Below are positions 16,846 to 33,194 of a stretch of DNA of 64,000 nt, piece after piece (the stretch's first letter is position 1; the number at the start of each line of letters is the position of its first letter). The position numbers were made by a program, and so were the translations under genes. Source of the DNA: Halodesulfovibrio sp. MK-HDV (GTDB lineage: Bacteria; Desulfobacterota; Desulfovibrionia; Desulfovibrionales; Desulfovibrionaceae); contig NZ_WYDS01000001.1 in NCBI RefSeq assembly GCF_009914765.1, forward strand, positions 248,001 to 312,000. Reading direction: 5' to 3'. The notes beneath the pieces were generated by a model, which saw nothing but the letters and a program-made list of their open reading frames with translations, did not search any database and was not told where the DNA came from.

Positions 16846-17366
16846 GACTTACTTTTTTTATTAATTGAAGCGAAAGCAGTTGGGGGCAGTTAAGTTGATC
16901 CTATATAATTAACCGCGTCGCTTCTCGTTCTGAATGTAAAACACTGACAGGCTCGAATAGGAATTATTGTGTTTGAATTGGAAGAATATACAGTATTATA
17001 TTTCTTCTATTGAAAGCATCCAAAATAAAAAACGGGTGTTCAAAAAAGTGTTATAAAAATAAGTTCTAACGAGTTATAAAAGATAATCAGGATTACACGT
17101 TGCGTAGATATGAAGTGCTGTTAGGCGTGGTGTGCGCGTGATTATGCATCTTGCAAGTTTTTTTTTGACGGATAATGCACATTTTTTTTTTATTTTTGCT
17201 GTGTTTAGAAGTTGTTGTGGCGCTCGAAAATGGAATAATTAACAAAAATTGATACTGTAAAGCTTATTATTTGGCGTGCTAGGTGCTTTTTTAATAAAAG
17301 ATTAAGAGGTTTTTCTGTCCTCTATCCATTGTACGACTTGAGTTAGGTATTTATTTTGAAAAGAAA
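16846..17366. other. Convergent intergenic region, nothing recognised
   Basis: About 520 bases between two converging genes. The sequence is AT-rich with several long T-runs (near 17160 and 17190). I see no open frame with a ribosome-binding site, no tRNA and no repeat of note. Confidence 0.5.
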
Positions 17367-28174: not shown

Positions 28175-28890
28175 CTACAGATTGGTAATAAGCACCACGG
28201 CAAAGAGGAAAAAAAAGAAGGAATAATAAGCATGGCGGACTCTAAGTGAAAGAACACCTCCAAGTGCTGCAAAGAACCATAAGTAGCTCCAAGTAACACC
28301 AGAACATTCAATAATAGAGCCGTATACATCATATGCAATAGAGATAGTGCTAATTAGCACAAGCAGGTAGGTAAAGAAGAAAACAAAGTTCAAACCCAAG
28401 GTTTGGAGCAATGCTTTGCTAATAATTTTATGTAAAAAAAGTTGCTCGTCAACAACACTTTCTGGGTGTTTGAGTGCCAGCAATTCATTGTGATGAATAT
28501 TGTGGCGTTGTCGTAATGTTTGTTCAAGGTATGGGCAAATTAAAGCCGCAGGCATGGACAGAACCATTGGGATGACGAGCTGTGATGGGAATTCTAATGA
28601 AAAAAAGCTGGCTGCGGCCAAAGTTGCAACCAGCGAGGCGGTTCCGTTGGGCGGTATGTATGTTCCAACCGGAAAAAGGTCGAGCCAGAAGAGCTCAAAG
28701 AAAATGGCGGCTGGGAGGGCTAGTTCCCACTCCCCTGTTATGATCGCCCAAAAAAAGCCGATGGCCAAGGGGCGTTCAACAAAACCTAAATTAACATTAG
28801 TTCGTAGCAGCGCTAGGATGGCAAAAAAAAAGCGTAGCCACTAAGCCAGGGAATTGAGGAAAATTGAATAACAGGAAAAACAGCATCCAT
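28175..28890 (-). pseudogene. PTS mannose-type EIIC permease, frameshifted at an A9/T9 run
   Basis: EIIC of the mannose PTS family forms the membrane channel. An ATG at 28890, preceded by AAGGGG and two bases from the EIIB stop, opens a frame reading MDAVFPVIQFSSIPWLSGY that stops within 80 bases. The homologous continuation (ILALLRTNVNLGFVERP, then AIGFFWAIITGEWELALPAA) is in another frame and runs to 28175. The two frames meet exactly at nine A (28823-28831). One extra base in that run would give an intact protein of about 238 residues. It is a broken gene, a phase-variable or slippage-corrected gene, or a sequencing error. Confidence 0.75.
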
Positions 28891-28892
28891 TA

Positions 28893-29348
28893 CTATAGCC
28901 CCTTGATCTGTAATGGTTGGTTTGGTACGCAGCGGAAATCGAGAATAATTTCATGATTAGCAAAAAATTTAAGGCATTCTTCATCATGGTCGGAAATAGC
29001 AATGTGGTCACAGAGTTGTTTTTTCCCCGGTGCATAATGCAGGTTCCCGATATTAATTGATTCAAAAGAGAAGCCAGCGTCATGGATGCGTTTAGCATCA
29101 TCGCAATCTGCAACGATAATGAGCGTATCCTGAAGATTATTGCTCTGGGCGTAGGTCATAATTTCTGCAATGTGAATAAAATCAGCAGAAATTCGGCTAG
29201 GAATTGCGAGTGTAGCGATTTGTTGACGTAGCACATCATCCGCAAAATCATCATTTACGACGAGTAAATGTTTGGCATTAGTGTATGGAATCCAAGTTTC
29301 AATAACTTGTCCATGAATCAAGCGGTTGTCGATACGAATCCAAGCCAT
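28893..29348 (-). CDS. PTS mannose/fructose/sorbose-type EIIB component
   Basis: The 151-residue protein matches the EIIB fold of the mannose PTS family: MAWIRIDNRLIHGQV places the phosphorylatable His at position 12, followed by LLVVNDDFADD and INIGNLHYAPGKK. It would pass phosphate from EIIA to a sugar held by EIIC. It lies three bases after the EIIA gene and two before EIIC. No EIID gene is adjacent, so transport competence is uncertain and a regulatory role is possible. Confidence 0.9.
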   Translation of the reverse strand: MAWIRIDNRLIHGQVIETWIPYTNAKHLLVVNDDFADDVLRQQIATLAIPSRISADFIHIAEIMTYAQSNNLQDTLIIVADCDDAKRIHDAGFSFESINIGNLHYAPGKKQLCDHIAISDHDEECLKFFANHEIILDFRCVPNQPLQIKGL

Positions 29349-29351
29349 AAT

Positions 29352-29786
29352 TTACTCGTTAACCTTACTACGCAGGATTTCACCAGCCATAACAATGCCC
29401 TTTCCACCAGCATCTTTTGCTTCAATAGCAAGACGGTCAAGCGCCATTGTACGACACCCAAATACTTTTAACAGCATTGGAAGGTTTACGCCTGTAAGAA
29501 CTTCTAAATGTCTGGTTCCGAGTAAAGATAGACTCAAGTTTGTCGGAGTCCCACCAAACATGTCGGTCAAAATGAGTACACCGCGACCTTCGTCTACATT
29601 CTCAACCATGTTTTTAATGACTGTGACTGTTTCCGAAACATCTTTTTCGCTATCAACGCTTACAGTTTCGCAGGAAGGTTGTTTGCCCATGATAACTTCT
29701 GCCGCACTTAACAGTGCCGCACCGTAGTTGGTATGGGTGACAATAACTACACCAATATTTGTTTCTTCAGGAAATGTGGTAGACAT
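29352..29786 (-). CDS. PTS mannose-type EIIA component
   Basis: The 144-residue protein has the EIIA-Man features: GVVIVTHTNYGAALLSAAE with His18 as the likely phosphorylation site, VLILTDMFGGTPTN and the GVNLPMLLK loop. In Desulfovibrio-type genomes such proteins sit with rapZ and ptsN, as here (rapZ ends about 30 bases upstream). Substrate unknown. Confidence 0.9.
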   Translation of the reverse strand: MSTTFPEETNIGVVIVTHTNYGAALLSAAEVIMGKQPSCETVSVDSEKDVSETVTVIKNMVENVDEGRGVLILTDMFGGTPTNLSLSLLGTRHLEVLTGVNLPMLLKVFGCRTMALDRLAIEAKDAGGKGIVMAGEILRSKVNE

Positions 29787-29815: not shown

Positions 29816-30706
29816 TTACGCCAAGTTAATATGACGATGCTCTTTGGAAACAGCAAAGTCAGATTTTTTCAAAAATTCGAAAATGGCCTCAGTTACCGCA
29901 ACAGAACGATGCCGTCCACCAGTACAGCCAAAGGCTATGGTGATGCGATACCGCCCTTCTTTTTCCATTTGCAGAAGCGTAAAGTGCAATAAGTCTTCAA
30001 GCTTTTTTAAATACGTCTGCCCCATACTGTTCTCTAAAACGTAGGCAACAACTGGGTCATCTTGTCCACTGTATTTGCGTAGTTCAAGATTATGGTATGG
30101 GTTTGGTAAAAAGCGTAAATCAAAAATCATGTCTGCTTCAGAAGGAGTACTGTGCTTGAACCCAAAGCTCATGATATGAACTTTAAGACCTTTTGCATTG
30201 TTTTCTTCTGACTGCCATCTGCGTTGCAACACACGGCGCAAGTCATGAATGGAATACTCTGATGTATCAAAAATAAAATCTGCTTCTGAACGTGCAGGTG
30301 CCATAAGAGCACGCTCATTTGTCATGGCCTGTTCAAGGCCGATACCGTTTCCTTCAAAAGGATGCGGTCGTCTTGTTTCTTTGTATCGGCGCAGGATAAT
30401 ATCTGCACGTGATTCAAGAAATATGACAGTAGGCGAATATCCGGCTGCAACTAATGTATTAATAGTCGTTGCCCATTCATTTTTGAATGAGCACTGCCGG
30501 CCATCTACTCCAAGTACAATCCCTTTATAGCTCTCAAGTCCACAGCCTGTAAGAACTTCCATGAATTGCGATGTCATAGACATCGGAAGTCCGTCAATAG
30601 TGTAGTATGCCATGTCTTCAAAGACTTTTAGCGCGCTACTTTTACCAGCTCCGGAGAGTCCAGCAATAATGATTACAGGAATAGTACGTTGAGATGAAGA
30701 AATCAT
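29816..30706 (-). CDS. rapZ: RNase adapter protein RapZ / nucleotide-binding protein YvcJ family
   Basis: The 296-residue protein has Walker A GLSGAGKSS (16-24), GVDGRQCSF, the RRPHPF segment and the C-terminal signature GCTGGRHRSVAV that binds small RNA or metabolite in RapZ. In E. coli RapZ steers RNase E to the GlmZ small RNA to control glucosamine-6-phosphate synthesis; whether that holds here is unknown. The place between ptsN and PTS EIIA is the classical rpoN neighbourhood. Confidence 0.92.
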   Translation of the reverse strand: MISSSQRTIPVIIIAGLSGAGKSSALKVFEDMAYYTIDGLPMSMTSQFMEVLTGCGLESYKGIVLGVDGRQCSFKNEWATTINTLVAAGYSPTVIFLESRADIILRRYKETRRPHPFEGNGIGLEQAMTNERALMAPARSEADFIFDTSEYSIHDLRRVLQRRWQSEENNAKGLKVHIMSFGFKHSTPSEADMIFDLRFLPNPYHNLELRKYSGQDDPVVAYVLENSMGQTYLKKLEDLLHFTLLQMEKEGRYRITIAFGCTGGRHRSVAVTEAIFEFLKKSDFAVSKEHRHINLA

Positions 30707-30718
30707 AAATTACTCATG

Positions 30719-31168
30719 TTACGCAGCAGATAAAAGGTTCCACAAAGTTTCCTGACTATCAGATTCCATAAATAATTGTTTGAAATCCTCATCTTTCAGG
30801 AGTCGCGAAATTTGGGCAAGGATGCGCAGGTGTGTACCTGCTACGTTTTCCGGAGCAAGCACCATGAAGAAAATCTTACAAGGTTTTTGATCAAGTGCAT
30901 CAAAGTCCAGCCCATCGAAGCTTCGACCGGCTACTACTACTATTTTATCGAGTGCTGGAAGTTTTCCGTGAGGAATGGCAATGCCATTACCAATACCTGT
31001 GGTTCCGAGAGCTTCTCGTTCCATAAGCACGTTAAAAACTTCTTCAGCATCAAGGGATGGGTTTTTTTCAACGACAGGAGCCAAGAGCTCCGCCAGCGCC
31101 TCTTGTTTGGTGCTGGCGGTTAGCTCTGGCAATACAAGTTCTTTTTCTAGGTATTCACCCAGTTTCAT
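30719..31168 (-). CDS. ptsN: Nitrogen-type PTS EIIA, PtsN
   Basis: The 149-residue fructose/mannitol-type EIIA domain has the phosphorylation motif GIGNGIAIPHGK (His67) and ends LLKDEDFKQLF. PtsN is a regulator that reports PTS phosphorylation state and does not transport. It lies nine bases downstream of hpf and 12 upstream of rapZ, the standard rpoN cluster order. Confidence 0.92.
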   Translation of the reverse strand: MKLGEYLEKELVLPELTASTKQEALAELLAPVVEKNPSLDAEEVFNVLMEREALGTTGIGNGIAIPHGKLPALDKIVVVAGRSFDGLDFDALDQKPCKIFFMVLAPENVAGTHLRILAQISRLLKDEDFKQLFMESDSQETLWNLLSAA

Positions 31169-31176
31169 TACTTTTC

Positions 31177-31713
31177 CTAGAAAACGGGGTCAATCAGTCC
31201 GAAATTGTTATCTTTTCGGCGGTAGATCACATTTACCCGTTCAGTTTCAGCATTTAGAAAAACAAGGAAGTCATAATCAAGTGCATCAAGCTGCATAGCG
31301 GCTTCGTCAAGATCCATCGGTTTCGGGATAAAATTATCCATACCAATGATGGTTCGTTCTGCCTCTACTGCTTCTTCTAGAGGCATGTCACCTTCTAGAA
31401 CAAACTTCTCTGCACCCTTGCGTTTCGTTTGCAGTTTTTCCGTACGACGTATGATCTGTGCTTTAAGTTTATCGCGAACAAGATCAACGGTTGCATACAT
31501 GTCTTCAGACTGTTCGGTAGCGGATAAAGTTAAGTTATCCGATACAAGTGAAATTTCGGCTTTGTGGCGGAAATTGTCAACAGAAAGTGAGACTTGCATT
31601 TCCAAGTGTTCAGGGTTCGGTAAGAATCTGCCAAGCTTGTTGAAGCGTCGTTTGGCATAAGCTTTTAGGTGATTGGAAGGCTCAAAGTTTTTGAATGTGA
31701 ATGCGATGTTCAT
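31177..31713 (-). CDS. hpf: Long-form ribosome hibernation promoting factor
   Basis: The 178-residue protein has the N-terminal S30AE domain (MNIAFTFKNFEPSNHLKAYA) and a C-terminal dimerisation domain (FIPKPMDLDEAAMQL, DYDFLVFLNAETERVNVIYRR). The long form alone makes 100S ribosome dimers in stationary phase. It lies 53 bases downstream of rpoN, as in many proteobacteria. Confidence 0.94.
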   Translation of the reverse strand: MNIAFTFKNFEPSNHLKAYAKRRFNKLGRFLPNPEHLEMQVSLSVDNFRHKAEISLVSDNLTLSATEQSEDMYATVDLVRDKLKAQIIRRTEKLQTKRKGAEKFVLEGDMPLEEAVEAERTIIGMDNFIPKPMDLDEAAMQLDALDYDFLVFLNAETERVNVIYRRKDNNFGLIDPVF

Positions 31714-31766: not shown

Positions 31767-33194
31767 CTAGAATACCACCTTTCTCTTGGATGATGAAGGG
31801 ATATTCATTGCGGTACGGTATTTAGCTACAGTTCTTCGTGCAATGTTAACCTGCAGTTTTTCTTTCAAAATCTCACCGATTTTTTCATCGCTGAGCGGTT
31901 TTTTTGTATTTTCTTCACTAATAAGCTTTTTAATGAGTGCTTTTACGCTCTCCGATCCGACCTGACTACCATCATCAAGGCCAATTGCACTGTTGAAGAA
32001 GAACTTCAGTTCAAAAATACCGTGCGGGGTCGAAATGTACTTACTTGTGGTGATACGGCTTACCGTTGATTCGTGCATGCCAATATCATCTGCAATATCT
32101 TTAAGAATCAGCGGCTTTAACGATGTAACACCGTTAAGGAAGAATTCTCTTTGATATTTAACAATACTCTCAACTACTTTATATAAAGTTCGTTGCCGTT
32201 GGTACAGACTTTTTATCAGCCAGGAGGCAGAGCGCATCTTGTCCTGATAATAATCTTTTTCTTCAGCATTAGTAGTTTTCGGGAGTTGTTCTGTTAATTC
32301 ACTGAGTTGTAATTGTGGTAAACCATCTTCATTGAGGACGATAACGAATTCTTTTTCGTACTCATAGATGTAAACATCCGGAGAAACATACTGTGCTTCT
32401 CCTCCACCGAACCGTGCCCCCGGCATAGGGTCAAGGCTCTGGATTACATCTAGGTACTCTCTGAGATCTTCAAGGGAAATTTTGTATTTTCGAGCAAGTG
32501 GTTTGTAACGACGCTTCTCTAGGTCTTCAAGATGATTAGTAATAATATCTACAAGAATTGGGTCACGGTCGTAATTGAGAGCTTTTACCTGAACGAGCAG
32601 GCATTCCTGCGGAGTGCGAGCAGCAACTCCAATAGGGTCAAATTGTTGAATATGCTCAATAAGTTGTTCGACTGTTTCAGTATCGCTTTGAGCAATCTGT
32701 GCCAGCTCTTCTGTAGATACATGTAAGTACCCATTAGAGCTGATGCTGCCAATGATGATTTCTCCAACGCGAATTTGCTCTTCAGAGAATGGAGAAAGCA
32801 TTAATTGCCAGTACAGATGACCGTCTAACGTTGGAGCAGGAGCAAGACGAGCTTCAAATGAGCTCATTTCCTCTAGTGCTTCAGTTTCTCGCATTGAAAC
32901 CTGTTTGGTGGTACTTGAGAAATCCCCCAGATAGTCTTCCCAGTCAGCGTTAGTAGAGAGCTCTTTGTCGTAAGCTTCCTGTTCATCTTTACGCTGCTCT
33001 TTAGCAGAAGTTTTGTCTGGATTAGCGGTTTCTTCCAAGGACTCTTCCAAAAAAGGATTCTCCAGCAACTCCTGCTGAACGGTTTCAGCAAGTTCCACGC
33101 GAGAAAGCTGCAGCAGTTTAATTGCCTGCTGCAATTGCGGGGTCATTACAAGCTGCTGGGCAAGCTTTAATTGTTGGCGAAGTTCAAGAGCCAT
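31767..33194 (-). CDS. rpoN: RNA polymerase sigma-54 factor
   Basis: The 475-residue protein has the glutamine-rich region I (LRQQLKLAQQLVMTPQLQQAIKLL motif split across residues 5-28), the acidic region II, the core-binding domain, a helix-turn-helix (DIGMHESTVSRITTSKYI) and the RpoN box ARRTVAKYR at 452-460 that reads the -24 element. A terminator lies between it and lptB upstream, so it probably has its own promoter in 33195-33330. Confidence 0.96.
   Translation of the reverse strand: MALELRQQLKLAQQLVMTPQLQQAIKLLQLSRVELAETVQQELLENPFLEESLEETANPDKTSAKEQRKDEQEAYDKELSTNADWEDYLGDFSSTTKQVSMRETEALEEMSSFEARLAPAPTLDGHLYWQLMLSPFSEEQIRVGEIIIGSISSNGYLHVSTEELAQIAQSDTETVEQLIEHIQQFDPIGVAARTPQECLLVQVKALNYDRDPILVDIITNHLEDLEKRRYKPLARKYKISLEDLREYLDVIQSLDPMPGARFGGGEAQYVSPDVYIYEYEKEFVIVLNEDGLPQLQLSELTEQLPKTTNAEEKDYYQDKMRSASWLIKSLYQRQRTLYKVVESIVKYQREFFLNGVTSLKPLILKDIADDIGMHESTVSRITTSKYISTPHGIFELKFFFNSAIGLDDGSQVGSESVKALIKKLISEENTKKPLSDEKIGEILKEKLQVNIARRTVAKYRTAMNIPSSSKRKVVF

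Follow-up and report, generated by a model that had tools for sequence, protein, structure and literature searches.

The window, the 64-kb stretch of DNA that was analysed, carries a gene cluster in the order rpoN-hpf-ptsN-rapZ-EIIA-EIIB-EIIC, and its last member, the membrane subunit EIIC of a phosphotransferase system (PTS) of the mannose/sorbose family, is divided between two reading frames that meet at a run of nine T (T9). The features of the locus are:

31767 to 33194, minus strand: RpoN (sigma-54), Pfam match
31177 to 31713, minus strand: S30AE protein, Pfam match, which we take to be hibernation-promoting factor
30719 to 31168, minus strand: PTS_EIIA_2 protein, Pfam match, presumably PtsN-like
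29816 to 30706, minus strand: RapZ, Pfam match
29352 to 29786, minus strand: EIIA (EIIA-man), Pfam match
28893 to 29348, minus strand: EIIB (PTSIIB_sorb), Pfam match
28899 to 28904, minus strand: ribosome-binding site of EIIC, AAGGGG, found by eye
28813 to 28890, minus strand: start frame of EIIC, with ATG, 25 codons and TAG, encoding the N-terminal half of the first helix and a short out-of-frame tail
28823 to 28831, minus strand: T9, candidate slippage site, read GCT TTT TTT TTG in the zero frame and TTT TTT TTT GCC in the downstream frame
28175 to 28831, minus strand: remainder of EIIC, offset by one base and EII-Sor-like, in whose frame the first possible start is TTG 28768

The ATG of EIIC at 28890 directly follows the EIIB stop codon (28893-28895) and is preceded, at a distance of 8 bases, by AAGGGG. 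The start frame passes through T9, which lies inside EIIC and reads as nine A on the plus strand (28823-28831), and then ends at a TAG at 28813; the rest of the gene lies one base off, from T 28831 to the stop ending at 28175, and the two halves joined give 238 residues. These positions bear out the original prediction, which placed the start at ATG 28890 after EIIB, had the two frames meet at nine A and expected one added base to restore about 238 residues. It had also described EIIA, EIIB and rapZ as intact, and all three lie well above their Pfam cut-offs, with the PtsN-like EIIA, the S30AE protein and RpoN likewise matching above cut-off in the genes adjoining EIIC. The EIID subunit is encoded on another contig (L207, 1498-3519), together with open reading frames (ORFs) read by eye as HPr and EI, in a cluster separate from that of EIIA, EIIB and EIIC; the genome thus appears to encode a complete mannose-type PTS of which EIIC alone is split. 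The EIIC T9 is the sole run of at least nine bases inside a gene of the window. The other runs, a T9 (17158-17166) and a T10 (17182-17191), are 15 bases apart and both intergenic, flanked by an EngB-like ORF and a large PpsA-like ORF (names given by eye). A scan for promoters and terminators added nothing.

The downstream part of the window's EIIC matches Pfam PF03609 with an E-value of 4.6e-5 and 23.4 bits (22.1 in another run), against a cut-off of 26.3, and profile A1 matches the mannose-specific EIIC of 6k1h (chain Y) with an E-value of 1.1e-4. Since the window's EIIC cannot be read in one frame, an in-frame relative (L097) was modelled as a stand-in (mean pLDDT 87.5). VIA-align superposed this model on 6k1h with a Z of 14.3 over 213 residues (rmsd 5.5), the first unrelated entry scoring 5.4; Foldseek returned no match to the model at E of 0.001 or below, its best being 9.8e-3, with Man-PTS chains ranked first. 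Profile and model together indicate that EIIC is related in fold and sequence to the solved mannose EIIC. In the model the first helix, which probably crosses the membrane, spans residues 5-25, and the T-run codons correspond to residues 14-16, in the middle of that helix, so that the unshifted product would end inside it.

Two sets of class genomes, of 162 and 30, were read at this site, 192 in all. An EIIC match was present in 51 of 59 relatives, in 225 of 297 genomes of the class and in 48 of 79 genomes of genus g40, these sets overlapping; in the 72 class genomes and 31 genomes of g40 without a match, the subunit is either missing or too divergent. The 192 rows come mostly from the better-scoring end of the matches, so variants lacking T9 may be undercounted, and they leave out one genome represented by a piece without the site (G023) as well as L032-L043, which duplicate some of these genomes. 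In 181 of the 192, spread over 39 genera, T9 occupies the same codon position; T10 occurs in 2, T8 in 3 and no run in 6. Ten or seven T throughout the relatives, the pattern that the original prediction associated with an assembly error, is therefore not what these genomes carry. T9 is preceded by C or G in 180 genomes and by A in one, and followed by G in 179 and by A in two. The 181 T9 genes span EIIC GC contents of 22 to 73%, with a median of about 61%. Retention of the run in 181 of the 192 excludes chance. A search of the phylum gave a match in 86 of 297 genomes, 11 of them from the window's class; outside the class, T9 occurred in none of 29 EIIC genes (read in 29 of the 75 matching genomes), and each of these had a possible start in frame with the rest of the gene. 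Judged from these comparisons, the split of EIIC at T9 is a trait of this class. Runs of at least nine T or A are not otherwise absent, numbering 7-143 per genome in the 11 genomes counted. A look at 18 other sites with T9, A9 or longer runs (6 in G077 and 12 in G195) was too coarse to tell which are coding.

Codon usage at the run points to selection on its length. Across all 192 rows, the three phenylalanine columns at the run use TTT in 183/183, 187/189 and 187/189 cases, and the other phenylalanine codons of the same genes divide into 1579 TTT and 1399 TTC; in the 95 T9 genomes whose EIIC has a GC content of at least 60%, the other phenylalanine codons even favour TTC (759, against 476 TTT). 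The T that closes the preceding zero-frame codon (GCT, GGT, AGT or TGT) is present in 180 of 180 offset genes where codon usage predicts about 30, a constancy that is partly a matter of definition, as rows were first grouped by run length. What stands free of this grouping is that wherever a gene among the 192 is offset, its run is neither shortened nor interrupted. On this pattern of codons we conclude that T9 is under selection as a nine-base run. Synonymous identity between genera is somewhat raised over about the first eight codons past the run, beyond which it lies mostly at background, with scattered high columns elsewhere, and codons 4-8 show somewhat more synonymous constraint than expected. 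Upstream of the run, substitutions at zero-frame positions 1, 2 and 3 number 514, 308 and 863 (187 within-genus species pairs, non-independent). Both halves of EIIC, as their sequences indicate, evolve like coding sequence.

Run and frame are closely coupled. Of the 181 genomes with T9, 180 have a start codon in the offset frame. Among these 180, no ATG, GTG or TTG is within reach in the other frame in 129, and the remaining 51 also have one there. The sole exception (G218) carries T9 with an extra A before the run and is in frame. All 11 genomes without T9 have an in-frame start, and 4 of them also have a possible offset-frame start; with starts in both frames in 51 of the 180 offset genomes and in 4 of these 11, the start test alone is indecisive for some rows. 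Furthermore, the N-terminal peptide of in-frame variants equals the offset-frame peptide of their sisters in four comparisons (L097/L081, L201/L200, L140/L162 and L108/L158); for the remaining in-frame variants, the sister is too distant or the likeness weak. On a FastTree phylogeny of the 192 proteins, in which many branches are weakly supported, at least 10 changes of frame state and 9 of run state are needed. The supported branches yield 8 independent pairs: the run and the frame changed together in 7, in opposite ways in none, and the run stayed unchanged in 1 (p = 0.016), the last presumably being the pair of G218. The sequence comparison thus indicates that T9 and the frame offset have been retained as a pair across the class and lost as a pair. 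The sole T10 genes among the 192, L097 (in G278) and L201 (in G297), are both in frame; they may represent genuine escapes, strain switches or errors in the homopolymer of a draft assembly. In genera g3 (L025 and L095) and g48 (L130 and L118, the latter with T8) the run is eroded or shortened and EIIC lies in one frame, which makes these lineages useful natural controls.

We propose that EIIC is probably produced by programmed transcriptional slippage (U9 to U10) at the conserved T9. RNA polymerase would slip on the run, adding one U (or dropping two) in a fraction of transcripts; slipped transcripts would yield the full-length EIIC of about 238 residues, and faithful U9 transcripts would yield only a peptide of about 25 residues ending within the first helix. 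The likely effect is that EIIC would be held at a fraction of the EIIA and EIIB made from the same cluster, and this lower dose would perhaps match that of EIID, encoded in the other cluster with HPr and EI. The locus has the features expected of a slippage site, namely an A/T homopolymer of at least 8-9 bases at the junction of offset ORFs, in an arrangement kept in 180 of 192 genomes; the offset is dispensable, as 12 of the 192 do without it. Published work reports that bacterial polymerases slip efficiently on nine A or T (PMC5009743) and that runs of such length are selected against in a large proportion of genomes (PMC1088944). A nine-A cassette in E. coli gave 40% frameshifting with polymerase and ribosome not separated (PMC3711429, excerpt), so that sequence alone does not decide between the two.

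The rival that survives best is programmed -1 ribosomal frameshifting on T_TTT_TTT or T_TTT_TTG, by which the mRNA would stay U9 and the ribosome would slip back one base; we regard it as unlikely, if well worth weighing. It would act in the same direction and give an identical product, slippery heptamers stand in phase within NNT TTT TTT TTG, and the slight synonymous constraint just downstream of the run could be a weak ribosomal signal. However, a heptamer from T4 to T9 and the following G needs no T1 and one from T1 to T7 needs no T9, yet neither base is missing in any offset gene among the 192. Moreover, no stimulator, whether a 3' structure or a Shine-Dalgarno-like motif, emerged among 76 representatives: local, pseudoknot-free RNA structure was absent downstream (mean z of 0.05 in a 60-nt window placed 5 nt after the run), and at most 5 of the 76 carry such a motif 8-14 nt upstream of the run. 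No upstream hairpin was found before the run either. Some known -1 frameshifting sites do lack a strong stimulator. We favour slippage by the polymerase because all nine T are kept though either heptamer would free T1 or T9, because no ribosomal stimulator was found, and because nine A/T slips efficiently with bacterial polymerases.

Other explanations fare considerably worse. EIIC might start internally, downstream of T9, with the upstream ORF as a leader peptide, and the window does contain TTG 28768; this is very improbable, as the first downstream ATG, GTG or TTG lies anywhere from 0 to 82 codons past T9, in-frame relatives carry the upstream peptide fused to the rest, and the run falls in the middle of the first helix in the model of the in-frame relative. 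Just as doubtful is phase variation by replication slippage, in which T9 would be the OFF and T10 the ON state. The two T10 genomes are indeed in frame, but both are many-contig assemblies in which the tenth T may be an error, and a contingency tract would vary widely where we count 181 T9 against 2 T10 (a comparison between genomes of the class). A pseudogene or an error of sequencing or assembly, as a single genome by itself would suggest, has practically no chance of being the explanation and is ruled out for the group by conservation and coding pattern, the same state recurring in 180 genomes, of which no fewer than 38 are assembled in 1-3 contigs, and both halves showing coding-type evolution. 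Among the readings that the original prediction had offered, transcriptional slippage is the best supported; the broken gene and the sequencing error find no support, and phase variation is improbable.

Comparison with known slippage systems places the EIIC site among them. In Shigella flexneri mxiE, the offset ORFs mxiEa and mxiEb are likewise joined by one added U and the long product needs slippage (PMC1088944), which occurs with an efficiency of 20-30% (quoted in PMC4256274); here, in contrast, the gene encodes a PTS membrane subunit, the site recurs in most of the genomes read across a whole class, the run lies about 20 codons past the start and a second product is not evident. Citrobacter rodentium tssM1 (A11) is also an interrupted membrane-protein gene rescued by slippage, at 20-25% (PMC4256274), but its run is of A and both of its products are needed; among tssM genes only one other case, in Yersinia pseudotuberculosis, is given (PMC4256274). 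Thermus thermophilus dnaX (A9) shares the nine-base run, and slippage there fixes a product ratio (PMC1088944, PMC5009743); unlike EIIC, which needs slippage for its full length, dnaX gives the shorter product by slipping. Genes of IS elements with A/T runs also have overlapping ORFs that slippage fuses at a conserved run of nine bases (PMC1088944), whereas EIIC is a chromosomal transporter gene, matched once in nearly every genome searched. Our literature search found no record of the EIIC T9 case, which is possibly present, unnamed, in the GeneTack supplementary cluster list; it does not appear in the excerpts of PMC3711429, PMC5009743, PMC1088944, PMC2405797, PMC10102598, PMC4641369, PMC4066793 and PMC5723342. 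The kind of mechanism is already known, and our verdict is that the EIIC T9 would be a new, unusually well conserved case of it. By all the sequence evidence, it would be a real programmed recoding site, class-wide, in a chromosomal transporter gene.

Why the offset is kept is a question separate from how it is read through, and the natural reading is that T9 may act as a throttle on EIIC dose. The alternative is a neutral lock-in, in which slippage rescued the gene after an ancient one-base deletion and T9 has since persisted solely because its loss would cost the cell EIIC, with no regulatory benefit. We give this a substantial, though smaller, share of our belief. In-frame genes with open frames arose in several lineages (at least 10 state changes on the tree) and a second functional product is not evident, both of which are compatible with lock-in. 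The out-of-frame tail of the short product extends for 0-37 codons after the run and for nine in 86 of 180 offset genes, a length that may simply result from overlap with conserved EIIC codons; nothing in these sequences points to a second functional protein from the short frame. On the other hand, one inserted base restores the frame, yet 180 of the 192 keep the offset, over EIIC GC contents of 22 to 73%. T runs readily gain bases. The rarity of this one-base escape (12 of 192 in frame) suggests that the in-frame state is usually selected against.

We also consider, as a rather improbable extension, that slippage at T9 might serve as a sensor, such that the in-frame fraction of EIIC mRNA would follow the UTP level or the speed of RNA polymerase, a dependence on UTP being expected since the added base is U. 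If so, nucleotide or nitrogen status would set, with no regulator protein, the level of a PTS membrane subunit encoded beside rpoN, ptsN and rapZ. For Desulfovibrio vulgaris, co-fitness is described for PtsI and a putative EIIA, with defects on alternative nitrogen sources, in an excerpt that leaves EIIC unmentioned (PMC10102598).

If transcriptional slippage at T9 is confirmed as the means by which EIIC is made, a PTS membrane subunit would, in most members of a bacterial class, depend entirely on recoding at a run of exactly nine T. This would rank, in our own judgement rather than by a census, among the most widely conserved uses of homopolymer slippage in a non-mobile bacterial gene. The EIIC genes of these genomes are liable to be annotated as pseudogenes or as truncated, and the natural in-frame variants would offer a ready comparison for why a cell would keep such a throttle.
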